Notes under the pieces: model-generated
Told to the model about the DNA's origin: nothing
Seen by the model: the letters and a program-made list of their open reading frames with translations, nothing else
Databases searched by the model: none
Program-made: the position numbers and the translations under genes
In this document: positions 49,336 through 64,000 of the stretch, in pieces
Layout of the letters: each line of letters opens with the position of its first letter
How positions within the stretch are numbered: position 1 is the stretch's first letter
NCBI RefSeq assembly: GCF_001854805.1
Contig: NZ_MBLO01000222.1
Location: 1-64,000, forward strand
Direction: 5' to 3'
DNA: 64,000 nt
Source: Pseudofrankia coriaricola
GTDB taxonomy: Bacteria > Actinomycetota > Actinomycetes > Frankiales > Frankiaceae

Positions 49336-49626
49336 ATGTCGACCAACCCGTTCGATGACGAGATGGGCAGCTTCTACGTCCTGGTCAACGCGGAGGGCCA
49401 GCACTCGCTGTGGCCGACGTTCGCGCCGGTGCCGGCCGGCTGGACGACGGTGCACGGGGCCGCGAGCCGGGCGTCCTGCCTGGAGTACGTGGAGGCCAAC
49501 TGGACGGACCTGCGTCCGGCCAGCCTGATCGCCCGGATGGAGGCCGACGGCCCAGCGGCGCCGGCGACGGATGCGCTCGCCGCGCGGGGCAGCCGCGACG
49601 GCGTCGACTCCGGCACGTCGCGATGA
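49336..49626 (+). CDS. MbtH-like NRPS chaperone
   Basis: 96 aa from ATG at 49336 with AAGGAG upstream. Residues 1-65 are a complete MbtH domain: NPFDDE start, [15 protein letters not shown] with the conserved N-x-E-x-Q-x-S-L-W-P, FAPVPAGW, and the final W-T-D-L-R-P (WTDLRPASL). MbtH proteins bind adenylation domains and are needed for their folding or activity. The extra 30 C-terminal residues are Ala/Gly-rich and variable. First gene of the biosynthetic operon; its stop overlaps the next ATG (ATGA at 49623). Confidence 0.96.
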
Positions 49627-52600
49627 CGGCGCCGGTGGTCTACCGCGAACGGACGGTGGCCGGCCTCGGCGACCCGCTCGCCGCGGCGGCCCGGTTCGCC
49701 CGCGGTGCGGCCGCGCCGGTCACCGTGTACGAGCAGGACGGCGAATGGCGCTGTGGCTCGGGCGCCCTGGCCGAGATCGTCCTGTACTGGGACGAGATCC
49801 GCTACCGGATGGACGGTGGCTGGCGAGTCGAGCCGGTCGAGGGTGACCCGTTGCGCGCCCTCGCCCGCGTCCTGTCCGTCCTCCCGATCGCGGACTGGCG
49901 AGCGTGCGGCTGGGCCGGCTTCGAGCTCGGCCCCCGGGAGCTCGGGCTGCCCGGGCCGGTCAGCCCCGACCCGCTCGCCCATCTGGTCATCCCGGCCCGC
50001 GAGGCGCGGCTGTCGGCGACCGGCGCGCTGCTGCGCGCGGCCGACCCGGCCGACCTGGACGCCCTGGCCGAGCTCGTGACCGGCGCGGACGCCGCCGAGC
50101 CGGGCGAGGCCCGGCCGCTGGCCGACCTGGAGCACGACGCCGACGAGTACCGGCGCACGGTCGCGCGCGCCGTCGAGGACATCGCGGCCGGCCGGCTGCG
50201 CAAGGTGATCGCCTCCCGGGTCGTCCCGGTCGAGGGCGAGATCGACCTGGTCGCCACCTACGAGCTCGGCCGGCGCGGCAACACGCCCGCCCGGTCCTTC
50301 CTGGTCGACCTGGCCGGCGAGCGCGCGATCGGCTTCAGCCCGGAGACCGTGGTCGAGGTCGGCGCCGACGGCCGGGTCTCCAGCCAGCCGCTGGCCGGCA
50401 CGAGGGCGTTGCTCGGCGACGACGGCGACGCGGCCCGGCGGGACGAGCTGCTGCGCGACCCGAAGGAGATCTACGAGCACGCGGTGTCCGTGCAGGCGGT
50501 CCAGGACGAGCTGCGGCCGCTGTGCGCGCCGGGCACACTGGTCGTGGACGAGTTCATGAACGTCCTCGAGCGGGGCAGCGTCCAGCACCTGGCCTCGCGG
50601 GTCAGCGGCCGGCTCGTTCCCGGCCGGGACGGCTGGGACGCGCTGGCCGCCGTCTTCCCGTCGATCACGGCGACCGGCGTGCCGAAGGACGCCGCCTGCG
50701 CCGCGATCCGCGGCTACGAGCCGCGGCCGCGCGGCCTCTACAGCGGCGCCGTGATCAGCGCGACCTCGGACGGCGCCATCGACGCCGCCCTCGTCCTGCG
50801 GACGGTGTTCCAGCGCGACGGCCGGACCTGGCTGCGCGCCGGCGCGGGCATCGTCGGGGCGTCGAGCCCGGAGCGGGAACTGGAGGAGACGCGCGAGAAG
50901 CTGCGCAGCGTCAGCCGCTTCCTCGTGCCGGCCCGGCCGGCGGCGGCACCTGAGCCGGCCGCGATCCCGGCCGCTTCGGGGCTGGTCGGTTCGGTGACGG
51001 CCGAGGATCTCGAGGCGTTGCGGCGCGCCGTCGCCGAGCTCCTGGAGGAGGACCCGGCAGCCCTGGGGGACCAGGACAACCTCTTCGAACAGGGACTGGA
51101 GTCGATCGCCCTGATCAAGGCGATCGGGCAGTGGCGGCGGGCCGGGATCGAGGTCAACTTCGCGGAGCTGGCCGAGACCCCGACCCTCGACGGCTGGTTC
51201 AAGCTGTTGACCAGCCGGCGGCCCGCGGCCCCGGCGTGGACCGAGACCGGGACCGGAACGGGACCGGCGGGCGCCGAACCGGTGGGTGCCGAGAGGGTGG
51301 AGCCCGAGGCCGGCACCGAGTTCCCGCTGGCGCTGATGCAGCACGCCTACTGGGTCGGGCGCGGCACGGGCCAGACCTACGGGGGCGTCGCCGCCCACCT
51401 CTACACCGAGTTCGACGGGAGCGGCCTCGAGCCGGCCCGGCTGTCCGCCGCTACCCGGCGGCTCATCGAACGGCACGAGGCCCTGCGTACCCGGATCACC
51501 GACAACGGCGGCCAGGTCGTCGAACAGGTCTCCGGCTGGCGCGGGCTGACCGTCCACGACCTGCGCGGCCTGGACGAGGACACCGCCGCCGCCCGGCTGG
51601 CCGCCGTCCGCGACGACCTGTCCCACCAGATGCTCGACATCGAGCGGGGTGAGGTCTTCTCGACCGCGCTCAGCCTGCGGCCGGGCGGCGCGACCCGGTT
51701 CCACCTCGACGTCGACATGGTCGCCGCGGACGCCGTCAGCTACCGCGTGCTGCTCGCCGACCTGGCCGACCTGTACGACCGCCCGCACGAGGTCGCGCCC
51801 GCGCTGGCCTACAGCTACCGCCGCTACCGGGCGGAGCACGGGGCCGCCCGGCCGGAGGCGGTGGCCCAGGCCCGCGCCGCCTGGCTCGACCGCCTGCCCA
51901 GCCTGCCGGGAGCGCCCCAGCTCGCGCTGGCATCGGCCCCGGTGGCGACCGACGGCCCCACCGGCCCCACCGGACCCGGCGGCCCCACCGGACCCGGCGG
52001 CCCGGCGGCGGCGCCGCGGGTGTCGCGGCGCCACTTCCAGCTGCCGCCGTCGGCCCGCGAGGCCCTCGGCCGGGCGGCCCACCAGCGCGGCGTGACCCCG
52101 GCGATGGCCGTCGCGACCGCGTTCGCCGAGGTCCTCGGCGGCTGGAGCGCGCAGCCGCGGTTCCTGCTTAACGTCCCGCTGTTCGACCGCGAGCAGCTCC
52201 ACCCCGACGTCAACCGCGTCGTCGGCGACTTCACCAGCTCGGTGCTGCTGGAGATCGACCTGACCGACCGCGTCCCGTTCGTCGACCGCGGCCGCCAGGT
52301 CCAGGCCCGGCTGCACGCCGACGCCGCCCACGCGGACTACTCCGGCGTCGAGGTGCTGCGCGACCTGGGCCGCCGCCACGGCGAGCCGGTGCTGGCACCG
52401 GTCGTGTTCACCAGCGCGCTCGGCCTCGGCGAGCTGTTCGACGCCCCGGTGCGCCGGGAGTTCGGCCAGCCGGTGTGGATCATCTCGCAGGGCCCGCAGG
52501 TGCTGCTGGACGCCCAGGTCACCGAGCTCGACGGCGGGCTGCTGGTCAACTGGGACATCCGCGAGGGCTCCTTCGCGCCCGGCGTCGTCGACGCGATGTT

Positions 52601-54725
52601 CGCGGCGTTCGAACGGCTCGTGCGAGACCTGGCCGACCTGGGCTCGGCGAGCAGCGCGGGCGGCGGCGCCTGGGACCAGCCCGTCGACGGCCTCCTCGAC
52701 GAGTCCACCCGAGCGGTGCGCCGCCGGGTCGCGGCGACGGCCGGGCCGGCGTCCACCCGCCTGCTGCACGAGGGGTTCTTCGCGGCGGCGGAACACCGTC
52801 CGGACGCGCCCGCCCTGCTGTGGGACGAGGCGGCGTCCGCGGCTGGACCGGCCGGGGGCCGGTCGCTCTCCTACGGCGAGCTCGCCGAGCGGGCGACGGC
52901 CGTCGCCGGCGCGCTGGTCGCGCGCGGCGTCCGGCGCGGCGAGCTGGTCGGCGTCTGCCTCCCGAAGGGGCCGGACCAGGTCGTCAGCGTCCTCGGCGTG
53001 CTCACGGCCGGAGCGACCTACGTGCCGATCGGGGTGGAACAGCCGCCGGCCCGGGTCGCGCAGATCGCCGCGACCGCCGGCCTGCGCACGGTCATCGCCA
53101 GCCCGGCGGCCGGCCAGGACTGGCCAGCCGGCATGACCCCGCTCATCCTCGACGACGCTCACGAGGCCGCCCCGCGCGGCGCGCTCACGCTGGGCGCGGC
53201 GGACGATCCCGCCCGCCTCGACGAACCCGCCTACGTCCTGTTCACCTCAGGGTCGACCGGCCAGCCCAAGGGCGTCGAGGTCGGGCACCGGGCCGCGATG
53301 AACACCATCGACGACCTGATCGACCGGCTGGAGCTCGGCGCGGGGGACCGCACGCTGGCCGTCTCGGCTCTCGACTTCGACCTGTCGGTCTTCGACATCT
53401 TCGCCCCGCTGTCCTCCGGCGGCGCGGTCGTGATCGTCGACGAGGAGTCCCGGCGCGAGGCGACCCGGTGGGCCGAGCTCATCGCCGGCGGCGTCACGAT
53501 CCTCAACTGCGTGCCGGCCGTGCTGGACCTGGTCCTGTCCGCCGGCGTGCCGCTGGGCGGCAGCCTGCGCGCGGTGCTGCTCGGCGGGGACCGGGTCGGC
53601 GTCGACCTGCCGGGCAGGCTTGCGGCAGCCGTCCCAGGCTGCCGGTTCCTGGGGCTCGGCGGCACGACCGAGACCGCGATCCACTCGACCGTGTGCGAGG
53701 TCGCCGGGGGCGGCCCGGTGCCGCCCGAGTGGCGCTCGGTGCCCTACGGCAAGCCGCTGCGCAACGTCGCGCTGCGTGTCGTGGACACCCTGGGCCGCGA
53801 CTGCCCCGACCACGTCGCCGGCGAGTTGTGGATCGGCGGCGCCGGCGTCGCCCGCGGCTACCGGGGCGACCCGGAACGCACCGCGGACCGGTTCGTGACC
53901 CACGAGGGCGCCCGCTGGTACCGCACCGGCGACCTGGCCCGGTACCAGGCGGACGGCACCGTCGAGTTCCTCGGCCGCCGCGACCACCAGGTCAAGATCA
54001 AGGGATTCCGGGTCGAGCTCGGCGAGATCGAGGCGGCACTCGGCTCCGTGCCCGGAGTCCGGTCCGGGGTGGCCGCGCTGACGCCCGGCGCGGGTGGCCG
54101 GCCGCCGGCGCTCGGGGCGGTCGTCGTCCTGGCCGCGGGGACCGACGAGACGCAGGCGCCGGCCGCGGTCCAGGCGGGCCTGCGGGCGCTGCTGCCGCCG
54201 CACATGGTGCCCGACCGCATCGTCGTGGTGGCCGAGCTCCCGCTGAGTGCCAACGGGAAGATCGACCGGCGGGCGGTCGGCGCGCTCCTCGAGCGCGAGC
54301 TGGCCGGGCCCCACCGCGCCTCGGCACCGCCGCGGTCGGACCTGGAACGGGTGATCCGGGCCGTCTGGCGGGAGGTGCTGGGCGTCGACGAGTTCGGCGT
54401 CGACGAGGAGTTCTTCGCTCTCGGCGGCGACTCCGTGCTGGCCACGTCCGTCGTGGCCCGGCTGCGCGAGGAACTCGACACCGGCGAGGTGACGGTGCGG
54501 ATGGTCTTCGGCGCACCGACGGTCGCGGGGCTCGCGGACAACATGCGCGCGGCCGAGGCACTGCCTGGGCGGCTCGACCGCGTCGCGGCGATCGCCTGGG
54601 AGATCGCCGCGCTCTCCGACGACGAGATCGAGGCACGGCTGCTCGACGCCACCGACCAGGCCGGCTCGTCCGACCAGGCCGGCGCCGCCGGCGCCTCCGC
54701 CGGCACCGCCGGGACGCAGCAGTGA
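49623..54725 (+). CDS. Salicylate synthase-ArCP-cyclization-adenylation-PCP fusion (NRPS)
   Basis: 1700 aa from ATG at 49623. Residues 1-440 are a complete MbtI/Irp9-type salicylate synthase: LRKVIASR holds the base Lys (K194), FSPETV the acid Glu (E241), then [31 protein letters not shown] and [10 protein letters not shown]. Residues 460-525 are an aryl carrier with phosphopantetheine Ser (S494 in [11 protein letters not shown]). Residues 560-1010 are a heterocyclization domain with the DxxxxDxxS motif DMVAADAVS (698-706). Residues 1045-1560 are an adenylation domain ([12 protein letters not shown]). Residues 1570-1640 are a PCP (LGGDS, S1604). My hand-read specificity code is D-L-F-N-L-G-L-I, closest to cysteine DLYNLSLI. 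The fusion would make salicylate and condense it into a hydroxyphenyl-thiazoline. A salicylate synthase fused to the NRPS is unusual. Overlaps the ligase gene by 4 bp. Confidence 0.95.
51954..52002 (+). repeat. In-frame GPTGPGGP linker repeat in the cyclization domain
   Basis: Repeated units of GGCCCCACCGGACCCGGC encode a collagen-like Gly-Pro-Thr linker ([18 protein letters not shown]) between the two halves of the Cy domain. Probably a slippage-prone spacer. Confidence 0.6.
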
Positions 54726-56398
54726 GCGCCCCGCTGGTCACCGACGCCGCGGCCCAGCCGGACACGGCCGGCGGCTGGGTCCCCTGGCCGGAGGAGTTCG
54801 CCCGCCGCTACGTCGCCGAGGGCTACTGGCGCGGCGGCCCGCTGGGCGACCGCCTCCGGGACTGGGCCGCCCGGTCCGGCGCCGCCACGGCCGTCGTGGC
54901 CGGGCCGGCGTCGTGCCCGGTCCGGCTCTCCTACGCCGAGCTCGACCAGGCCGCGGACGACCTGGCGGCCGGGCTCACCCAGCTCGGCATCGCGCCCGGC
55001 GACCGCATCCTGGTCCAGCTGCCGAACCGCGCCGAGTTCGTGACGCTCCTGTTCGCGATGCTGCGTCTCGGTGTCATCCCGGTGCTGGCGCTGCCGGCGC
55101 ACCGCCGGGTGGAGATCGAGCACCTCGCCAGCCTGTCCGGCGCCGTCGCCTACGCGGTCCCGGACACGCACGAGGGCTTCGACCACCGCGCGCTGGCGAG
55201 GGACATCATGGCCACGGTCCCGGCCGTGCGCCACGTGCTCGTGGCCGGCGACGCCGGCGAGTTCACCGGCCTCGACGCGCTCGCGGCGGCCGGCGCGGCC
55301 GCGCGGGCCGAGGGGCGGGCCGCGGCGCCGCCCGCCCCCGACCCGGCCGGCGTCGCGGTGCTGCTCATCTCGGGCGGCACGACCGGCAAGCCCAAGCTGA
55401 TCCCGCGCACCCATTGGGACTACGCGTACAACGCGGCGGCCAGCGCCGAGCTGTGCGGGCTCACCGCCGAGGACACCTACCTGGTCGCGCTGCCCGCGGC
55501 GCACAACTTCCCGCTGGCCTGCCCGGGGATCCTGGGGGCGTTCGGCTCCGGGGCGACCGTGGTCATGGCGAGCTCGCCCAGCCCGGAGGTCGCCTTCGAC
55601 CTGATCGCGCGGGAGCGGGTGACAGTGACCGCCCTCGTGCCGGCGCTGGCGCGGATCTGGGTCAGCGCCGCCGAGTGGGAGCGGCCCGACACCGCGAGCC
55701 TGCGCCTGCTGCAGGTGGGGGGCGCCCGGCTGGACGCGGAGCTCGCCCGGCGGATCCCGACGACCCTCGGCGCGCAGGTCCAGCAGGTCTTCGGCATGGC
55801 CGAGGGGCTGCTGAACTACACCCGCCTGGACGAGGGCGACGAGCTGGCCTTCACCACCCAGGGCCGGCCGCTCGCGCCGGCCGACGAGATCCGGATCGTC
55901 GACCGCGACGGCGCCGACGTGCCCCCCGGCGAGGTCGGCGAGCTGTGGACCCGCGGCCCGTACACCCTGCGTGGCTACTACCGAGCCGCCGAGCACAACG
56001 CGACCGCCTTCAGCCCGGACGGCTACTACCAGTCCGGCGACCTGGTCCGGCAGACCCCCAGCGGCAACCTGGTCGTCGAGGGCCGGATCAAGGACGTCAT
56101 CAACCGCGGCGGCGAGAACGTCTCCGCCGGCGAGCTGGAGGAGCACCTGCTCGCCCACCCGGCGATCGCGCAGGCCGCCGTCATCGCGGCGGCGGACGAG
56201 CAGGTCGGCGAGAGCGTCCGCGCGGTCGTCGTCCTCGTGCCCGCGGCGACGCTCACCCTCAAGGCGGTCAAGGCCTTCCTGCGCGAGCGCGGGCTCGCCC
56301 GTTTCATGCTCCCCGACCTGCTCACGGTGGCCGACGCGCTGCCGCTCACCGCGGTCGGAAAGATCGACAAGCGGGAGCTGCGGCGCCGCATCGGCTGA
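54722..56398 (+). CDS. Salicyl-AMP ligase (stand-alone aryl acid adenylation enzyme, YbtE/MbtA type)
   Basis: 558 aa from GTG at 54722 (GTGA overlap). Aryl-acid adenylate-forming family: WVPWPEEFARRYVAEGYW start, LISGGTTGKPKLIPRTH (phosphate loop), VALPAAHNFPLACPGILG, QVFGMAEGLLNYTR, YYQSGDLVRQTP, EGRIKDVINRGGENVSAGELEE and the C-terminal lysine in VGKIDKREL. In the substrate pocket a cysteine occupies the LACPG position, where dihydroxybenzoate enzymes such as DhbE have serine (LSSPG-like); Cys is typical of salicylate-specific YbtE/MbtA/PchD. This agrees with the fused salicylate synthase and the absence of EntA/EntB homologues here. It loads salicylate onto the aryl carrier of the upstream fusion. 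Confidence 0.94.
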   Translation: MSAPLVTDAAAQPDTAGGWVPWPEEFARRYVAEGYWRGGPLGDRLRDWAARSGAATAVVAGPASCPVRLSYAELDQAADDLAAGLTQLGIAPGDRILVQLPNRAEFVTLLFAMLRLGVIPVLALPAHRRVEIEHLASLSGAVAYAVPDTHEGFDHRALARDIMATVPAVRHVLVAGDAGEFTGLDALAAAGAAARAEGRAAAPPAPDPAGVAVLLISGGTTGKPKLIPRTHWDYAYNAAASAELCGLTAEDTYLVALPAAHNFPLACPGILGAFGSGATVVMASSPSPEVAFDLIARERVTVTALVPALARIWVSAAEWERPDTASLRLLQVGGARLDAELARRIPTTLGAQVQQVFGMAEGLLNYTRLDEGDELAFTTQGRPLAPADEIRIVDRDGADVPPGEVGELWTRGPYTLRGYYRAAEHNATAFSPDGYYQSGDLVRQTPSGNLVVEGRIKDVINRGGENVSAGELEEHLLAHPAIAQAAVIAAADEQVGESVRAVVVLVPAATLTLKAVKAFLRERGLARFMLPDLLTVADALPLTAVGKIDKRELRRRIG

Positions 56399-56520
56399 CG
56401 CCGCCCGGCCAGCGCCGCCGGGGCGCCGGGCCGTGCACTCGGCCCGGCGCCCGCCACCCCAGCCGCACCCGTGCCGCCCCCCAGCCCACCGAGGCCGGCA
56501 CCACCGGAAGGACGTGCATC

Positions 56521-59500
56521 GTGGCAAGTCCCGACTCCGCGCAGCGCAAGCGCGAGCTGCTCCGCCGCCGGCTGGCCGCCGAGCGGCTGACGCGTGAGGC
56601 GACGGGCGGCGCTGGCGGCCGGGCCCGGCGGGAGCCCGGGCGGGGCTACCCGGTCAGCCCGGGGCAGCGACGGATGTGGTTCCTGTCGCGGCTCGACCCG
56701 GGCAGCGCCGCGTACACGATCTCGGCCGCCTTCGAGCTGACCGGTCCGCTCGATGCGGAGGCACTGCGCCGCGCCCTGCTCCTTGTCGCGCGCCAGCACG
56801 AGATCCTGCGCACGACGTACCAGGTCACACCGGACGGGCACCTGGAGCAGGTATCCCGGGACGACGTCGAACCGGCCTGGCTCAGCGTCGACCTGTCCAC
56901 CGAGCCCGCCGAGCCCGCCGAGCCCGCCGAGCCCGCCGAGGACCGCGACGGGCGCGCGCGGGAGATCGCCCTGCGCGCGGCCCGGCGCCCGTTCGACCTG
57001 ACAGCCGAGTCGCCGCTGCGGGTCACCGTCCTGCGGCATGGGCCGCTGCGGCACACGCTCGCGCTCGCCGCCCACCACATCGCCTGGGACGACGCGTCCT
57101 GGGACGTCTTCTTCGGCGACCTGCTGGCCGCCTACAGCCGGGGGGACCGCGACCCGGACACGTCCCAGGACGCCGGGGCGGACGGCGCCGTCCAGTTCCT
57201 CGACGCGGCCGTGCTGGATGGCGATCCGCCCGTCCGGCCGGAGGGCCTGTCCTACTGGCGGGACCGGCTGCTCCCGCTGGCCGAGCCGGTGCGCCTGCCC
57301 GAGCCGACCCCGGACGACCGAGCGGCCGACGCCCTCGCGGCCAGCGGCCTGCCCAGCGCGGCCGCCGCCGGCCGGCGCGACGCGGGCCGGCAGGTTGTCC
57401 ACCACGCACCAGCGGAGCTCGCCGGCCGGATCCGGACGTTCGCCGCCCTGTACGGCGTGACGCCGTTCATGGTGCTGGTCGCCGGCTACGCCGCCCTGAT
57501 CCACCGGGTCACCGGCGCGACCGACGTCACCGTCGGCTCGCCCGTCGTCAACCGGGACGCCGCCGCGACCGACGGCGTCATCGGCTACTTCGGCAACACC
57601 GTCTGCCTCCGGCTGGCGGTGGCACCGGCCGACACCTTCACCGACCTCCTCGAACAGGCCCGCGAGGCATGCCTGGGTGCCTTCGCCCACGCCGACGTCG
57701 ACCTGGTCGACGTCGTGCGCGCCGTCAACCCGGACCGCTCCGACGGGGTGTCCAGCCTGTTCAGCACGATGTTCGGCGTCCGCTCGCCGGCCGCCGCCGC
57801 GCTGCACCGCCATGACCCCGCCGGCGGCGACCTGCGCGGCGAGCGCCGCCCCCTGCACAACGGCACCGCCCAGTTCCCGCTGATGGTGGTGGCCGAGCTC
57901 GGTGGGGACGCGGGCCAGCCCGACTCGCTCGAACTGGAGACGACCTTCCAGCCCGGGACGGTGTCGGCCGCGTTCGCCAGCTCCGTCGGCCCGCGCCTTG
58001 CCCGGCTACTGACCCGGGTGGTGGCCGAGCCCGACGCGCCGATCGGCCCGGTGGACCTGCTCGACCAGGCCGAGCGTGACCAGGTCCTGCGCGCCTGGAA
58101 CGACACTGCCGGGCCCAGCCCGACCGAGCCGTGGGAGGCTCTGTTCGCCGCGCGGGCGGACCGCGACCCCGATCGGCCGGCGCTGGTCACCGCCGGCCGG
58201 ACGCTGACCTATGGCGAGCTGGCCGCCGCGGCCGACGCGTTCGGCCGCCGGCTGGCCGGCCGAGGAGCCGGACGCGGCTCCGTCGTCGGGATCGCGCTGC
58301 CCCGCTCGGTCGACCTGGTCGTCGCGCTGGCAGGCGTCGGCCGCGCCGGCGCCGCCTACCTTCCGATCGGCCCCGACTACCCGGCCGACCGGATCGCGTT
58401 CATGATCGAGGACGCGGCCCCGTCGGTCGTGGTGACCACACGCGCCCTCGCCCCGCGGATCCCGGCCGCACCCGGCATGGAACTCGTCCTCATCGACGAG
58501 CCCGAGCCCGCGGCCGCGGCGGTCGCCGGACCCTGGCCGCCGGCCGTCGACCCGGACGACCTGGTGTACGTGATCTACACGTCGGGCTCGACCGGCCGGC
58601 CCAAGGGCGTCCCGCTCGGCCACCGGTCACTCACGAACTTCCTCTCATCCGTCGCCGACACGGTTGGCATCGGACCGGACGACCGGGTGCTGGCCGCGAC
58701 CACGCTGACGTTCGACCCGAGCACGCTCGAACTGCTCGCGCCGCTGACGGTCGGCGCCTCGGTCCACCTCGTCGAAGGCGAGGCCGCCCGAGACCCGTCC
58801 CAGCTCTCCCGGCTGCTGACCACCGGCGCGGTCACGCTCGCCCAGGCGACCCCGTCGCGGTGGCGGTCCATCCTCGATGCCGCCCCCGAGGCCTACCCGG
58901 GGGTGCGCGTCCTGTGCGGCGGCGAACCGATGCCGGCGGGCCTTGCCCGGGAGCTTGCCGCGCGCGCGCAGAGCGTCACCAACCTGTATGGGCCGACCGA
59001 GACGGCGGTCTGGGTGACGGTGGGCCCCTGGCACGGCGCCGGCGCCGACGGCGGGCCACCGCCGGTCGGCCGGCTGCTGCGCAACACCCGGGCCTACGTG
59101 CTGGACGGCGCGCTCATGCCGGTGCCGCCCGGAGTCGTGGGTGAGCTGTACATCGCCGGGGTCTGCGTCGCCCATGGCTACCTCGCCCGGCCGGAGCTGA
59201 CCGCGGCCCGCTTCGTCGCGAGCCCCTTCGCGGCCGGCGAGCGGATGTACCGCACCGGCGACCTCGCCCACTGGACCGCGCGGACCTCCCAGATCGCCGG
59301 GGGCGATCCGGCAGGGACCCCGGGCGAGCTGGTCGTGGCCGGCCGCTCGGACGACCAGGTCAAGGTGCGCGGCTTCCGGATCGAGCCGGGTGAGATCGAG
59401 GCGGTGCTCGAACGCCACCCGGCGGTCGCGCGCTGCGCGGTCGTCGTCCGCGAGGACGGACCTGCCGGGCGCGCGCTGGTGGCGTACGTCGTCCCGGCGG

Positions 59501-62500
59501 CCGGCGCGGCCCGCGCGGCCCGCGCGGCCGACCGGCTCGAGCCGGCGCCGGCGGGCCAGCCCGCTGAGGCCTCGGACGGGAGGAGCGCGGCGCTCGCGGA
59601 CCGGCTCCGCGCGCACGCGGCGTCGTTCCTGCCCGGCTACATGGTGCCGGCGGCCTTCGTGACGCTGCCCGCCCTGCCCACCAACACGAGCGGGAAGCTG
59701 GACCGCCGCGGCCTGCCCGCCCCCGACTTCGCGGCGGCCCGGCCCGGCCGAGCGCCCACCACCCGCACGGAGACGGTCCTGCGGGACGTCTTCGCGGCCG
59801 TGCTCGGCCAGCCCGGCCTCGGCGTCGACGACTCGTTCTTCCATCACGGCGGGGACAGCATCCTGGCCTTCGCCGTCGTCACCCAGGCGGCCGCCGCCGG
59901 CGTGCCGGTCGCGCTGGCCGACGTGTTCACCACCCCGACCGGCGCCGGCCTGGCCGCCGCCGCGGACGCGGTGGCCACGGCCGAGCTGACGGCCGCGGCC
60001 GGTCCGGTGCCCCCGGCCGAGCCGGAACTCGCCGAGCTGGCGCCCGTCGATCCGGCGGACCTCGCCCGCTGGCGTGACCGGCTGCCCGGGCTGACCGAGG
60101 TGTGGCCGCTGTCGCCGTCGCAGGCGGGGATGCTGTTCCACCGCCTCGTCGACGGCGACGACACGCCGGACGTATACGTGATCCAGTTCGTCCTGGACCT
60201 GGAGGGCGAGCTCGACCTCGACCGGCTGCGGGCGGCATCGCGGACGCTGACCGCCCGGCACGCCATCCTGCGCGCCGCCGTCCTGGCCGACGGCCGGGCA
60301 CCGGCCCAGGTGATCCTGGCCCACGCCGAGCCGGAGTGGACCGTCGTCGACCTGTCTGCCTGGCCCGCCGCCGAGCGGGCGGCCGAAGCGGACCGGCTGG
60401 TCGCGGACGACCGGGCCGCGCGGTTCGACCTGGCGGCGCCCCCGCTCATCCGCTTCCTGTGGGTCCGCACCGGGCCGGACAGCGCCCGGCTGGCGGTCTG
60501 CGCCCACCACGTCATCGTCGACGGCTGGTCGCTGCCTCTCCTGCTGCGCGAGCTGTTCGAGCTGGCCGCCGGCTCCGACGCCAACTCCATCGCCGCCGGC
60601 GGCTCTGGCCCCGCCACCGACACGGCGGCGGCCCGCCCGCCGGCCGCCCGCCCCTACGCGGACTACCTGCGCTGGCTGGGTGCCCAGGACCGGGACGCCG
60701 CGCGGGCGGCGTGGCGCGCGGAGCTCGCCGGCATTGAGGGACCGACCCTGCTGGCGCCCGGCGCCGGCCACCGCGCCGCCGCGCCGGCCGGGGCAGCCCA
60801 GTCGGCGGGCGCCGCCGAGCCGGGCCCGGCGGCCGCCCTCGACCGCGAGGTCGACCTGGAGCTGGCCGACCGGCTCGCCGCGCTCGGCCGCGAGCGGGGC
60901 CTGACGCTGAGCACCGTGCTGCGGGCGGCCCACGCGGTGCTGCTCGCGCGGGCGGCCGGCCGCGACGACGTCGTCCTCGGCGCGGTGACCGCCGGTAGGC
61001 CGCCGGAGCTGACCGGCGTCGATGCCATGATCGGCCTGTTCGTCACCACCGTCCCGGTCCGGGCCACGGTCACCGCGCAGCGGACGTTCGCCGCGCTCAT
61101 GGCCGACCTCCAGGCCGCCCAGGGCCGGCTGTTCGCGCACCAGCACCTCGGCCTGGCCGACATCCAGGCGCTGGCCGGCCAGGGGGACCTGTTCGACACC
61201 CTGCTCGTGCTCGAGTCCTACCCGTTCGACGCGGTCACGCTGATTCCCGCCGGCGGGCCGCGGCTCGCCGCCGTCGACGGTCACGACGCCACCCACTACG
61301 CGCTGACCATCCGGGTGATCCCCGGCGACCGGCTTCGGCTGACCTTCGGCTACCAGCGCGGCGTCCTCGACGACGCGACCGTCGCCGGCCTCGCCGACCG
61401 CATGCTCGCGCTGCTCGGCGAGATCGCGGCCGACCCGGACCGGCCGATCGGCGCCGTCGCCGCCCTGCCCCCGGCCGCGTGCGCCCAGGCCGCGCTCACC
61501 TCGGCGCCCCGGCGCGGCGACTGGGGCGCCGACGCCACCCTGCCCGACCTGTTCGAGGCCCAGGCCCGCCGGACCCCGGACGCGGTGGCGCTGCGCTGGC
61601 GCGAAGAGGAGCTCACCTACGCCGAGCTCGACGCCCGCGCCTCCCGGCTCGCGGGGCTGCTGCGCGGGCGGGGCGTCGGGCCGGAGTCGATCGTGGCGGT
61701 CGCGCTGCCCCGGTCGACCGACCTGGTCGTGACCCTGCTGGCGGTGCAGAAGGCCGGCGGCGCCTACCTGCCGGTCGACCCGGACTACCCCGCGGACCGG
61801 ATCGCGTTCATGCTGCGCGACGCCGCGCCGGTGTGCGCGGTGACCACCGCGGCGACCCGGGTGACGCTGCCGACCCGCACGGGCGTGCCCCTGATCGCGC
61901 TGGACGACCCGCTGGTCGTCGCGGCCCTGGCCGAGCAGCCGTCGACCTCGCTTGTGCCTCCGGGGACGGGGGCCGCCGGAGGTGCGAAGGAAGACCATTT
62001 TCGCACCTCCTTTGGCCCACCGGGCCCGGACGGGCGCGCACGGGCGGACAGCCTCGCCTACGTCATCTACACCTCCGGCTCGACCGGCCGGCCGAAGGGC
62101 ACCCTGATCCCGCACCGCAACGTGGTGCGCCTGTTCGCCGACAGCCGGGACCACTTCCACTTCGACGAGTCGGACGTGTGGACGCTGTTCCACTCGGTGT
62201 CGTTCGACTTCTCGGTGTGGGAGCTGTGGGGGCCGCTCCTGCACGGTGGCCGACTCGTCGTCGTCGACCACGACGTCTCCCGTTCCCCCGAGCAGTTCCT
62301 CGCCCTGCTGCGCCGCGAGTCCGTCACCGTCCTCAACCAGACGCCGTCGGCCTTCGGCGCGCTGATGGCGGCCGAGGCGGCCGCCGGTGGCGGCGGCGAT
62401 CTCGGCCTCCGCCTGGTCATCTTCGGCGGCGAAGCGCTGGAGGTCGGCCGGCTCGCCCCGTGGTACGAGCGCCACCCGGACGGCGCCCCCGCCCTGGTCA

Positions 62501-64000
62501 ACATGTACGGGATCACCGAGACCACGGTGCACGTCACGTACCTGCGGCTTGGTCAGGCCGACGCCGCGTCCGGGCGGCGCGGCCTGATCGGCGAACCGCT
62601 GCGTGGCCTGCGCGCGCGGCTCCTCGACCGCCACCTCGCCCCGGTGCCGCCCGGCGTCGCCGGCGAGATCTACGTCAGTGGCGGCCAGCTCGCCCGCGGC
62701 TACCTGGGGCGGTCCGCCCTGACCTCGGCCCGGTTCGTGGCCGACCCGTACGGCGAGCCCGGCGACCGGATGTACCGCACCGGCGACCTGGCCCGGCTGG
62801 GCGACGACGGCTCGCTGGAATACCTGGGCCGGGCCGACGACCAGGTCAAGATCCGGGGCTTCCGGATCGAGCCGGGCGAGATCGAGGCCGTCCTCGCCGC
62901 CGACGCAGCGGTGGAGCGGGTGGTCGTCGTCGCCCGGGAGGACGGCGCGGACCGGCGCCGGCTCGTCGCCTACGCCGTCCCCCGCGCGGGCCACCACGTC
63001 GACGGCGCGGCGCTGCGGGCCCGGGCCGCGGCGGCGCTGCCCGACTTCATGGTCCCGGCGGCGGTCGTCAGCCTGGACGCGCTGCCCCTGACCGGCAACG
63101 GGAAGCTCGACCGGGCCGCGCTGCCGGCCCCCGACCTGACCGCCGTGACGTCGGCGCGCCCCGGCGGCACCGACCTGGAGCGCGCGCTGTGCGCGGTGTT
63201 CGCCGCCGTGCTCGGCCTCGACCGGGTCGGCGTCGACGATGACTTCCTCGCGCTCGGCGGCGACAGCATCCTCGCGATCCAGCTGGTCAACCGGGCCCGC
63301 CGGGAGGGCGTCGAGCTCACCCCGCGCGAGGTCTTCGTCCAGCGGACGCCGGCCGCGCTCGCCGCGCTCGTCGCCGGCCGCGCCGCTGTGCCCGAGCCGC
63401 AGCCAGTCCTGGAGACCGAGCCCGCCCGGCCGGCATCGGCCAAGGGGTCCGCCGCCGCGGCGGTCGTCCCGGCCGGGACCTTCGACGCGACGGCCACCGG
63501 GATCTTCACCCCGCTGCCGATCGTGGCCCGGCTCGCCGAGTGGGGCGGCGAGATCCGGCGGTTCAACCAGGCGTTCCTGGCCCGGACGCCGGCCGGCACC
63601 GACGAGGCCGCGCTGCGGGCCGCGCTCGCCGCGCTGGTCGCGCACCACGACGGCCTGCGTTCCCGGCTGCTGCGGCCCGCGCCTGGCGTGTGGCTGCTCC
63701 AGATCGACCCGGCGGCACCCACGGCTGGTGACGGGGCCACCGCTGGTGACGGGGCCGCGGCAGGCACGGCATCGGCAGGCACGGCAGCGGGGGACACGAC
63801 GGCCGGCGACGGGGCGGCGGACGCCGGCCTGCTGACCCGGATCGACGTCGCCGGGCTCGACCCGACCGCGCTGCGCGCCGTCATCACCGCCGCCTCTGGC
63901 TCGGCCGCCGGGCGCCTCGACCCGGACGCCGGGGTGATGCTCCGCGCGGTCTGGCTCGACGCCGGCCCCGGCGAGCCCGGCCGGCTGGTGCTCGTCGCCC
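56521..64000 (+). CDS. NRPS, C-A-PCP-C-A(Thr)-PCP-E... (cut by window end)
   Basis: Open from GTG at 56521 (GGAAGGA 8 bases upstream) to the window end, at least 2493 codons. C1 has HHIAWDD near residue 185. A1 (about 530-1045) has YTSGSTGRPKG and hand-read code D-P-L-Q-L-G-L-V, which I cannot assign. PCP1 S1113 (HHGGDSIL). C2 has HHVIVDGWS near 1329. A2 (about 1680-2180) has code D-F-W-N-I-G-M-V, exactly the threonine code. PCP2 S2249 (LGGDSIL). From about 2325, FTPLPIVARLAEWGGEIRRFNQAF looks like an epimerization domain, so threonine would be the D-form. No thioesterase is in view. A linker repeat lies in C1 and an 11-bp-arm palindrome is inserted in A2. It extends the aryl-thiazoline made by the upstream fusion. 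Confidence 0.94.
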   Translation, partial: MASPDSAQRKRELLRRRLAAERLTREATGGAGGRARREPGRGYPVSPGQRRMWFLSRLDPGSAAYTISAAFELTGPLDAEALRRALLLVARQHEILRTTYQVTPDGHLEQVSRDDVEPAWLSVDLSTEPAEPAEPAEPAEDRDGRAREIALRAARRPFDLTAESPLRVTVLRHGPLRHTLALAAHHIAWDDASWDVFFGDLLAAYSRGDRDPDTSQDAGADGAVQFLDAAVLDGDPPVRPEGLSYWRDRLLPLAEPVRLPEPTPDDRAADALAASGLPSAAAAGRRDAGRQVVHHAPAELAGRIRTFAALYGVTPFMVLVAGYAALIHRVTGATDVTVGSPVVNRDAAATDGVIGYFGNTVCLRLAVAPADTFTDLLEQAREACLGAFAHADVDLVDVVRAVNPDRSDGVSSLFSTMFGVRSPAAAALHRHDPAGGDLRGERRPLHNGTAQFPLMVVAELGGDAGQPDSLELETTFQPGTVSAAFASSVGPRLARLLTRVVAEPDAPIGPVDLLDQAERDQVLRAWNDTAGPSPTEPWEALFAARADRDPDRPALVTAGRTLTYGELAAAADAFGRRLAGRGAGRGSVVGIALPRSVDLVVALAGVGRAGAAYLPIGPDYPADRIAFMIEDAAPSVVVTTRALAPRIPAAPGMELVLIDEPEPAAAAVAGPWPPAVDPDDLVYVIYTSGSTGRPKGVPLGHRSLTNFLSSVADTVGIGPDDRVLAATTLTFDPSTLELLAPLTVGASVHLVEGEAARDPSQLSRLLTTGAVTLAQATPSRWRSILDAAPEAYPGVRVLCGGEPMPAGLARELAARAQSVTNLYGPTETAVWVTVGPWHGAGADGGPPPVGRLLRNTRAYVLDGALMPVPPGVVGELYIAGVCVAHGYLARPELTAARFVASPFAAGERMYRTGDLAHWTARTSQIAGGDPAGTPGELVVAGRSDDQVKVRGFRIEPGEIEAVLERHPAVARCAVVVREDGPAGRALVAYVVPAAGAARAARAADRLEPAPAGQPAEASDGRSAALADRLRAHAASFLPGYMVPAAFVTLPALPTNTSGKLDRRGLPAPDFAAARPGRAPTTRTETVLRDVFAAVLGQPGLGVDDSFFHHGGDSILAFAVVTQAAAAGVPVALADVFTTPTGAGLAAAADAVATAELTAAAGPVPPAEPELAELAPVDPADLARWRDRLPGLTEVWPLSPSQAGMLFHRLVDGDDTPDVYVIQFVLDLEGELDLDRLRAASRTLTARHAILRAAVLADGRAPAQVILAHAEPEWTVVDLSAWPAAERAAEADRLVADDRAARFDLAAPPLIRFLWVRTGPDSARLAVCAHHVIVDGWSLPLLLRELFELAAGSDANSIAAGGSGPATDTAAARPPAARPYADYLRWLGAQDRDAARAAWRAELAGIEGPTLLAPGAGHRAAAPAGAAQSAGAAEPGPAAALDREVDLELADRLAALGRERGLTLSTVLRAAHAVLLARAAGRDDVVLGAVTAGRPPELTGVDAMIGLFVTTVPVRATVTAQRTFAALMADLQAAQGRLFAHQHLGLADIQALAGQGDLFDTLLVLESYPFDAVTLIPAGGPRLAAVDGHDATHYALTIRVIPGDRLRLTFGYQRGVLDDATVAGLADRMLALLGEIAADPDRPIGAVAALPPAACAQAALTSAPRRGDWGADATLPDLFEAQARRTPDAVALRWREEELTYAELDARASRLAGLLRGRGVGPESIVAVALPRSTDLVVTLLAVQKAGGAYLPVDPDYPADRIAFMLRDAAPVCAVTTAATRVTLPTRTGVPLIALDDPLVVAALAEQPSTSLVPPGTGAAGGAKEDHFRTSFGPPGPDGRARADSLAYVIYTSGSTGRPKGTLIPHRNVVRLFADSRDHFHFDESDVWTLFHSVSFDFSVWELWGPLLHGGRLVVVDHDVSRSPEQFLALLRRESVTVLNQTPSAFGALMAAEAAAGGGGDLGLRLVIFGGEALEVGRLAPWYERHPDGAPALVNMYGITETTVHVTYLRLGQADAASGRRGLIGEPLRGLRARLLDRHLAPVPPGVAGEIYVSGGQLARGYLGRSALTSARFVADPYGEPGDRMYRTGDLARLGDDGSLEYLGRADDQVKIRGFRIEPGEIEAVLAADAAVERVVVVAREDGADRRRLVAYAVPRAGHHVDGAALRARAAAALPDFMVPAAVVSLDALPLTGNGKLDRAALPAPDLTAVTSARPGGTDLERALCAVFAAVLGLDRVGVDDDFLALGGDSILAIQLVNRARREGVELTPREVFVQRTPAALAALVAGRAAVPEPQPVLETEPARPASAKGSAAAAVVPAGTFDATATGIFTPLPIVARLAEWGGEIRRFNQAFLARTPAGTDEAALRAALAALVAHHDGLRSRLLRPAPGVWLLQIDPAAPTAGDGATAGDGAAAGTASAGTAAGDTTAGDGAADAGLLTRIDVAGLDPTALRAVITAASGSAAGRLDPDAGVMLRAVWLDAGPGEPGRLVLVA
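56902..56937 (+). repeat. 9-bp in-frame tandem repeat (GAGCCCGCC x4) in C1
   Basis: Four exact copies of GAGCCCGCC encode (Glu-Pro-Ala)4 in the first condensation domain of the second NRPS, in a surface loop about 55 residues before the HHxxxD motif. Likely expanded by slippage. Confidence 0.8.
61978..62010 (+). repeat. Palindromic insert within the Thr adenylation domain
   Basis: GGAGGTGCGAA ... TTCGCACCTCC: two perfect 11-bp arms around an 11-base loop, in frame inside A2. It lies in an insert-like segment (GAAGGAKEDHFRTSFGPPGPDG) just before the YTSGSTG loop, where the sister A1 domain has no equivalent. It looks like a coding palindromic repeat element. Confidence 0.6.

Follow-up and report, generated by a model that had tools for sequence, protein, structure and literature searches.

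A 69-bp palindromic repeat of Frankiaceae, probably a non-autonomous mobile element, inserted in frame in a peptide synthetase adenylation domain

Two adenylation domains of the same non-ribosomal peptide synthetase (NRPS), A1 and A2, differ by a segment that carries a perfect DNA palindrome, is found in A2 only and sits immediately ahead of the motif YVIYTSGSTG. What is this segment, and how could it enter an enzyme? The reading favored here, with a probability of about three in four, is that it is a non-autonomous mobile palindromic repeat of Frankiaceae, 69 bp long, inserted in frame before the phosphate loop (P-loop) of A2. The window, the 64,000-nucleotide stretch of DNA analyzed, contains the following features:

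61528..63126, + strand: A2 adenylation domain, AMP-binding and AMP-binding_C (Pfam, AlphaFold), carrying the insert
61947..61954, + strand: host sequence just left of the insertion, CTCGCTTG, where the YCCNTYAG target would lie; in this copy it is eroded or atypical
61955..62023, + strand: 69-bp repeat unit (23 codons), placed by the consensus and junctions; covariance-model match 61952-62023
61978..61988, + strand: left arm GGAGGTGCGAA, 11 bp, palindrome core
61989..61999, + strand: 11-base loop GGAAGACCATT between the two arms
62000..62010, + strand: right arm TTCGCACCTCC, 11 bp, palindrome core

At 49374-63999 of the window the NRPS lies within an apparent siderophore cluster, salicylate- or hydroxybenzoate-capped, with isochorismate-synthase-like and aryl-AMP-ligase-like frames upstream, all read from translations.

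The initial annotation described perfect 11-bp arms around an 11-base loop, in an in-frame segment that is missing from A1 and poorer in GC than its surroundings. Each of these points was borne out. The palindrome is present at 61978-62010 in frame in A2, the A1 translation of the same protein runs without it, and the GC content rises from 58% in the 33 bp to 68% in 61953-62021 and 76% in the flanking 1 kb on each side, pooled. The annotation was right about the palindromic core but not about the extent of the repeat, taken as 33 bp; the full unit is 69 bp. The right end of the window copy reads CACCGG where the consensus has CTCTAG, and its borders are eroded, with TTG for YAG on the left and CCGG for CTAG on the right. 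The covariance model described below matches this copy with an E-value of 8.7e-20, a match by construction as the copy is part of the model.

Related NRPS regions in other Frankiaceae have up to 95% identity. In a 17-row alignment that includes the window protein, none of the 16 related A domains has the A2 segment, one of them being 94-95% identical; the segment is therefore not conserved ordinary protein sequence. The length of the host linker otherwise varies in the same alignment, and because of this variation and the eroded borders the exact empty site of the window copy is unreadable. An AlphaFold model of A2 (25-sequence alignment) has a mean pLDDT of 86.7. Its sole segment with pLDDT below 50, residues 144-161, falls inside the inserted peptide, which forms a long loop flanked, in the numbering of the model, by helix 128-135 and strand 176-182. 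For the A2 protein the predicted structure thus supports the earlier idea of an added surface loop. This placement comes from A2 only; the AlphaFold model of the GGR-like protein discussed below, with a pLDDT of 45, is too poor for it. The insert adds about 23 residues to A2, which the predicted enzyme presumably tolerates.

The element is not unique to this gene; it is dispersed through the host genome (11.2 Mb, 280 contigs). Copies with perfect arms number 35, with none for a reversed control pattern, and a looser core, GTGCGAAN{6,12}CATTTTCGCAC, finds 119. A profile search of the fetched loci recovered 139 copies or fragments at 108 sites, 128 of them at least 60 bp long. A chance palindrome is ruled out by the 35 perfect-arm copies against zero in the control, and by the 33-mer itself, which occurs once in the window and in none of 100 shuffles with three mismatches allowed. 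Forty extra 20-kb stretches picked away from known copies yielded nine more diverged copies that the patterns had missed, so the true total is higher. These nine, which exclude the window's own copy, correspond to 10 hits, as one place was hit on both strands. The aligned copies give the consensus TGATCCTGGGGACAACGGCCGCC-GGGTGTGCGAA-GGAAGATCATT-TTCGCACACCC-TTTGGCCCTCTAG. The unit is a multiple of three, and the consensus is open in three of the six frames.

When same-strand neighbors are taken as one array, the 108 sites comprise 83 single, 20 double, 4 triple and 1 quadruple. The arrays have a period of 68-69 and up to four units (contig C248). In each of the 31 neighboring pairs within 60 bp the two copies point the same way, making the arrays head-to-tail. 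A number of contigs end inside or beside repeats (L076, L077, L079, L080, L090, L124, L024, L025, L180), for instance where C260 ends and C261 begins. The assembly was probably interrupted by tandem arrays, and actual copy numbers are probably higher.

The loop is 11 bases in 139 and 10 bases in 10 of the 149 copies that could be parsed, out of 159. The arms covary. In 30 distinct copies 98.2% of the cells are paired, and 6 of the 15 pairs show two-sided change, as compared to 1.8 in shuffles and 0 to 1 in slid controls, a count that overstates independent events as related copies share ancestry. The arm types include GGGTGTG/CACACCC, GGAGGTG/CACCTCC, GGGCGTG/CACGCCC and GGACCTG/CAGGTCC. Such variety is difficult to account for unless the hairpin is selected for or copied. 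The consensus stem, folded as RNA, has an energy of -33 kcal/mol. No difference in age was seen between copies in genes and other copies (10 vs 126, p=0.28).

The unit has defined borders and a target on one side only. Directly before it, the 82 left flanks show the sequence YCC-N-T/C-T/C-A-G (YCCNTYAG), with conservation extending 8 bp outward; the G adjoining the left junction was part of the anchor used. The right flanks (n=98) show no signal beyond the unit's own end, at most 0.09 bits per position. The right end of the unit, GGCCCTCTAG, resembles the target, its terminal CCCTCTAG repeating it. Because the right end mimics the target, insertion directly behind an existing copy is possible, and this accounts for the head-to-tail arrays. 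A clean border was defined as AG on the left plus YAG on the right, letters that are fixed by this filter; 13 to 14 sites at contig edges and 30 sites without clean borders were left out. In the 64 clean sites the left tetranucleotide is TTAG in 27, TCAG in 20, CTAG in 7 and others in 10. The right end is CTAG in 68 of 98, but CTAG stands on the left in only 7 of 64; thus the right end travels with the element. A simple target duplication was rejected, since the left and right junction sequences differ at most sites. Terminal inverted repeats are absent as well (left end TGATCC vs right end CTCTAG), so neither of the two features that define a MITE, terminal inverted repeats and target-site duplication, was found.

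Copies occur in frame in other genes. Reading frames were called by a codon model for which 14 window ORFs served as the training set, in place of curated gene models. By this model 10 copies span a coding frame in nine genes: the NRPS, GlnE, a GGR-like FAD oxidoreductase, an acyl-CoA dehydrogenase, two membrane glycosyltransferase-like genes, a family-4-like glycosyltransferase, a methyltransferase-like gene and a CcdA-like gene with two tandem copies. Pfam, with four proteins scanned, backs GlnE, the FAD-binding domain, DsbD_TM and AMP-binding; the other names were read from sequence. The in-frame copies use four reading frames, two forward and two reverse. In a stricter pass, 8 of the 94-95 sites away from contig ends span a gene. 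The CcdA-like gene (L104:1323-2513, - strand) gains about 46 extra residues from its two tandem in-frame units; this insertion is probably recent, its sequence being near the consensus. The glycosyltransferase-4-like protein of L125 (C259:110240 and 110972) has an apparent second, N-terminal copy in another frame, and L125 also seems to contain a fragment of a further unit.

Relatives retain empty sites. In glnE of P. asymbiotica (genome G005) exactly 69 bp are missing and CCGGCCAG is joined directly to GTCG. The glnE insertion is common to the window genome and a second genome, G006 (L184 vs L068, L151), and may predate the split of the two species. The G005 glnE is without the insert, yet its sequence is closer, a pattern for which precise loss or an old polymorphism is possible. 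A 69-bp empty site was also found in G005 for a GT87-like gene. In the GGR-like FAD oxidoreductase the insert is missing from six of seven relatives, where FPK runs straight into G(D/E)V; the window genome has 22 extra residues between the two. The G005 protein (L143/L190 vs L022) has instead a four-residue scar, FGPE, a 12-bp remnant that is consistent with a natural in-frame partial deletion. For non-coding and stop-codon sites, 29 comparisons with G005 or G006 were made at 19 sites. Eleven were contiguous and clean on both sides; among these L239 carries its own copy and L224 has 12 extra bases, leaving 9 clean empty comparisons (9 of 29, at 7 of 19 sites) with one target copy each. The other 20 were diverged or gapped on one side, or had extra bases, a copy or a remnant.

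The initial annotation saw a protein-coding repeat. This applies to the in-frame copies; most copies lie outside genes or exactly at stop codons. Among 94 sites away from contig ends, a gene ends at the border in 44, a gene is spanned in 8, and 42 show neither. The 44 border genes comprise 19 on the left-hand side and 25 convergent from the right, and the stop codon at the border is TAG in 39 of the 44: the element's TAG for 20 convergent genes and the target's TAG for 19 left-hand genes. The 64 clean-border sites divide into 32 at a stop codon, 4 spanning a gene and 28 other. Half of the clean insertions are thus on stop codons and, by this codon model, leave the protein unchanged. Rejoining the target gives the 19 right-hand genes of the clean set a TGA or TAA stop; their present stop codon comes from the right end of the element. 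The original stop is visible at an empty site in G005, which reads TTGTCAG and then GGCTGC across the junction.

As a control, unoccupied YCCNYYAG motifs were collected from 864 kb, consisting of 40 chosen 20-kb stretches away from known copies plus the window. Of these 829 motifs 434 are in genes, 381 elsewhere and 14 at stops. The ratio of stop to other sites is 15:15 for motif-matched elements and 14:381 for controls (p=4.6e-12), a comparison confounded by the tetranucleotide mix. Within single tetranucleotides the ratios are 9:5 vs 0:6 for TTAG (p=0.014, uncorrected) and 4:7 vs 12:93 for TCAG (p=0.045, uncorrected).

The family extends beyond one genome. A covariance model built from 30 diverse copies and run on 35 Frankiaceae genomes (E-values are rough) gave matches in at least 17, the window genome included. 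The window genome has at least 145 matches (142 candidate places scored), and the same-genus genomes G006, P. asymbiotica and Frankia nepalensis (G004) at least 82, 59 and 19, respectively. In other genera, G024 has at least 110, G011 at least 22 and G015 at least 21; the remaining matched genomes have 10 or fewer each, among the matches listed, with 1 or 2 in G001, G003 and G007. Thirty loci read from G024, G011 and G015 mostly have the same architecture with a different consensus: a YAG border, a CCGGGGAC box, GGCCTCC, the hairpin, a loop ending in CATGATC and a CCTTTGGCCCTCCAG end. One of these is in frame inside a gene, 8 have a stop codon at the edge, 2 have an entering frame and 19 have neither. 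In genus g3 (G015), locus L297 has a related element in frame in an apparent FMN-dependent monooxygenase gene, a name read from sequence. The element is present in at least three Frankiaceae genera, with a divergent form in two besides Pseudofrankia. Matches of a contig scan outside Pseudofrankia and Frankia, among the matches listed, have variable gaps and look like chance. Nucleotide comparison with public plasmids and phages gave no matches to the repeat, and Rfam, searched with four loci, gave one match only (mir-2068, 23.7 bits, far under the cut-off of 99). A repeat carried by plasmids or phages and, for the four loci, a known Rfam RNA were rejected on these results.

How might such a repeat move? 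IS200/IS605, IS91 and Helitron-type HUH elements have a one-sided target at one end and a hairpin near the other; Helitrons typically end in CTRR after the hairpin, and all these families encode their own enzyme. The present repeat shares the one-sided target and the hairpin, but no enzyme of its own was found; homology is not claimed. We infer that an enzyme acting in trans would recognize the hairpin and cut on the 3' side of sequences like YCCNTYAG, which are present at the target and again in the right end of the element, GGCCCTCTAG; each insertion would in this way recreate the next target. Landing on a stop codon would leave the protein unchanged, and landing in a gene could survive as a peptide insert. 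Such landings can be harmless because the right end has CTAG, which reads TAG on either strand, and because the length of the unit is divisible by three and three frames are open; the remaining intragenic insertions would presumably be purged. A single-stranded, HUH-like intermediate is the preferred mechanism, at somewhat under even odds; it is favored by the one-sided target, by the hairpin and by the length of 69 bp, which would make a very small double-stranded circle. The Y1 transposase domain (PF01797, Y1_Tnp) has no match in the window genome, the control being positive in 5 of 14 genomes. The Y2 domain (PF04986) also has no match there, and likewise none in the 14 control genomes.

Other explanations account for parts of the same data. 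A classical MITE, mobilized by an IS5-like DDE transposase with TAG/YTAR as the duplicated target and building arrays by insertion into the duplicated TAG, fits the mostly YAG-bounded left and CTAG-bounded right borders, the single TAG shared by array neighbors and the CCAG found on either side of the G006 glnE copy. It is nevertheless improbable: terminal inverted repeats are lacking, the mixed left tetranucleotides set against the prevailing CTAG on the right show that the sequences at the two ends do not derive from a single copied target, and conservation reaches 8 bp outward on the left and not at all on the right. Much the weakest candidate is a CRISPR-like array of 33-bp repeats with 35-36 bp spacers, suggested by the period of 68-69 and the four-unit array. 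The would-be spacers are the constant ends of the unit, which are not unique, and 83 of the 108 sites are single-copy, leaving it hardly any probability.

The stop-codon sites raise a different issue, whether the repeats are functional 3'-end elements, terminators or mRNA protectors, kept by selection, with the intragenic copies as accidents. Half of the clean sites lie exactly at stop codons and the stable stem covaries, both of which would fit such a function. Some relatives, however, lack the element at the same gene ends (the 9 clean comparisons), and around two loci, L071 and L021, no intrinsic-terminator-like site was seen in a scan limited to loops of up to 8 bases, shorter than here. 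Insertion specificity could also give part of the stop bias, given the scarcity of YCCNTTAG, of which 864 kb contain only 6 unoccupied examples, all outside genes. A 3'-end function is accordingly judged unlikely, though it and mobility are not exclusive, since mobile elements can acquire a use. It is an even bet whether the excess at stop codons reflects survival only, with insertion at target motifs blind to gene ends. Intragenic sites are strongly depleted (1 of 31 motif-matched elements vs 434 of 829 unoccupied motifs) and the stop tests within tetranucleotides are modest, both in line with survival; the enrichment of stops among non-genic sites, for all its tetranucleotide confounding, speaks for more.

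In-frame palindromic inserts were first discovered in Rickettsia. The initial annotation likened the A2 segment to the Rickettsia RPEs, and in behavior it does resemble them, with in-frame copies in eight genes besides the NRPS. Like Rickettsia RPEs and Wolbachia WPEs, it is a short palindrome found between genes and in frame in conserved genes (PMC3767692, PMC2229807), and its in-frame inserts are absent from the relatives' genes (glnE, GGR-like FAD oxidoreductase, acyl-CoA dehydrogenase, NRPS A2 and others). RPE inserts sit in solvent-exposed areas of structure models, and RPE/WPE hosts are obligate intracellular alphaproteobacteria (PMC3767692, PMC2229807). RPEs are given as 100-150 bp (PMC3767692) or 105-146 bp (PMC2229807), and RPE-4 and RPE-6 are classed with CGTC REPs (PMC3733652). 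The present element differs in its 69-bp unit, its GC-rich actinobacterial hosts, its one-sided target and its head-to-tail arrays. It looks like a separate Frankiaceae family, set apart from the RPEs by description (host lineage, unit length).

The element also resembles REPs, which are high-copy hairpins mostly adjoining gene ends (PMC3733652). According to that paper, some GTAG/CGTC REPs are inside genes, also in free-living species, with intragenic REPs on record in some free-living bacteria; GTAG REP ends often give neighbors TAG stop codons; and CGTC REPs have no dedicated transposase (PMC3733652). The supply of TAG to neighboring ORFs by the element's end (39 of 44) is a GTAG-like trait. 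Unlike REPs, the unit is 69 bp rather than 20-40 (PMC3733652) and no Y1 transposase was found; the RAYT (Y1) associated with GTAG REPs has no PF01797 counterpart in the genome. The consensus of a 30-sequence alignment has neither a GTAG nor a CGTC tag beside the stem, and GTAG as left tetranucleotide, in 2 of the 64 clean sites, belongs to the host and lies over 20 nt away from the stem. Actinobacteria are missing from the phylum lists for GTAG/CGTC REPs, and the paper's text nowhere mentions Frankia, Actinobacteria or Streptomyces (PMC3733652). ERIC/RU-1, RU-2, RU-3 and NEMIS are likewise small mobile repeats with open frames fused to genes (PMC2759123, PMC2229807), but mostly have terminal inverted repeats, TA ends or target duplications (PMC2229807), whereas the present element has neither inverted ends nor a matching duplication. 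A survey of Frankia IS elements does not contain 'palindrom' or 'MITE' in its main text and reports IS200 and IS605 members in other Frankia strains (PMC2770080). Palindromes in Frankia genomes have been analyzed by program, with no such family described in the main passages (PMC4447401). Among titles and abstracts, mostly outside subscription journals, no description of the 69-bp element was found; in titles and abstracts none was found of in-frame palindromic inserts in actinobacteria.

The element is thus a variant of protein-coding palindromic repeats, in Frankiaceae, that was found described nowhere. It is present at high copy in a large-genome, GC-rich, soil-dwelling actinobacterial lineage, within genes such as glnE and the NRPS. 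Given the target rule and close relatives that have empty sites, the movement of such repeats becomes open to test: the cleavage sequence is predicted, the hairpin can serve as substrate, and protein pairs with and without the insert are at hand. For annotators there is a caution: the linker length of an NRPS domain can be mobile DNA. More broadly, and with rather less than an even chance of being right, the repeat may represent a Frankiaceae-wide class of hairpin mobile elements served by a putative strand-transfer enzyme. Its target YCCNTYAG would be matched to the right end CCCTCTAG, stops would be restored on either strand with the protein intact, and rare intragenic hits would survive as 23-residue inserts owing to the 69-bp, multi-frame-open unit. 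If true, the family would have a built-in safe-harbor strategy and its hosts a steady source of new protein loops.
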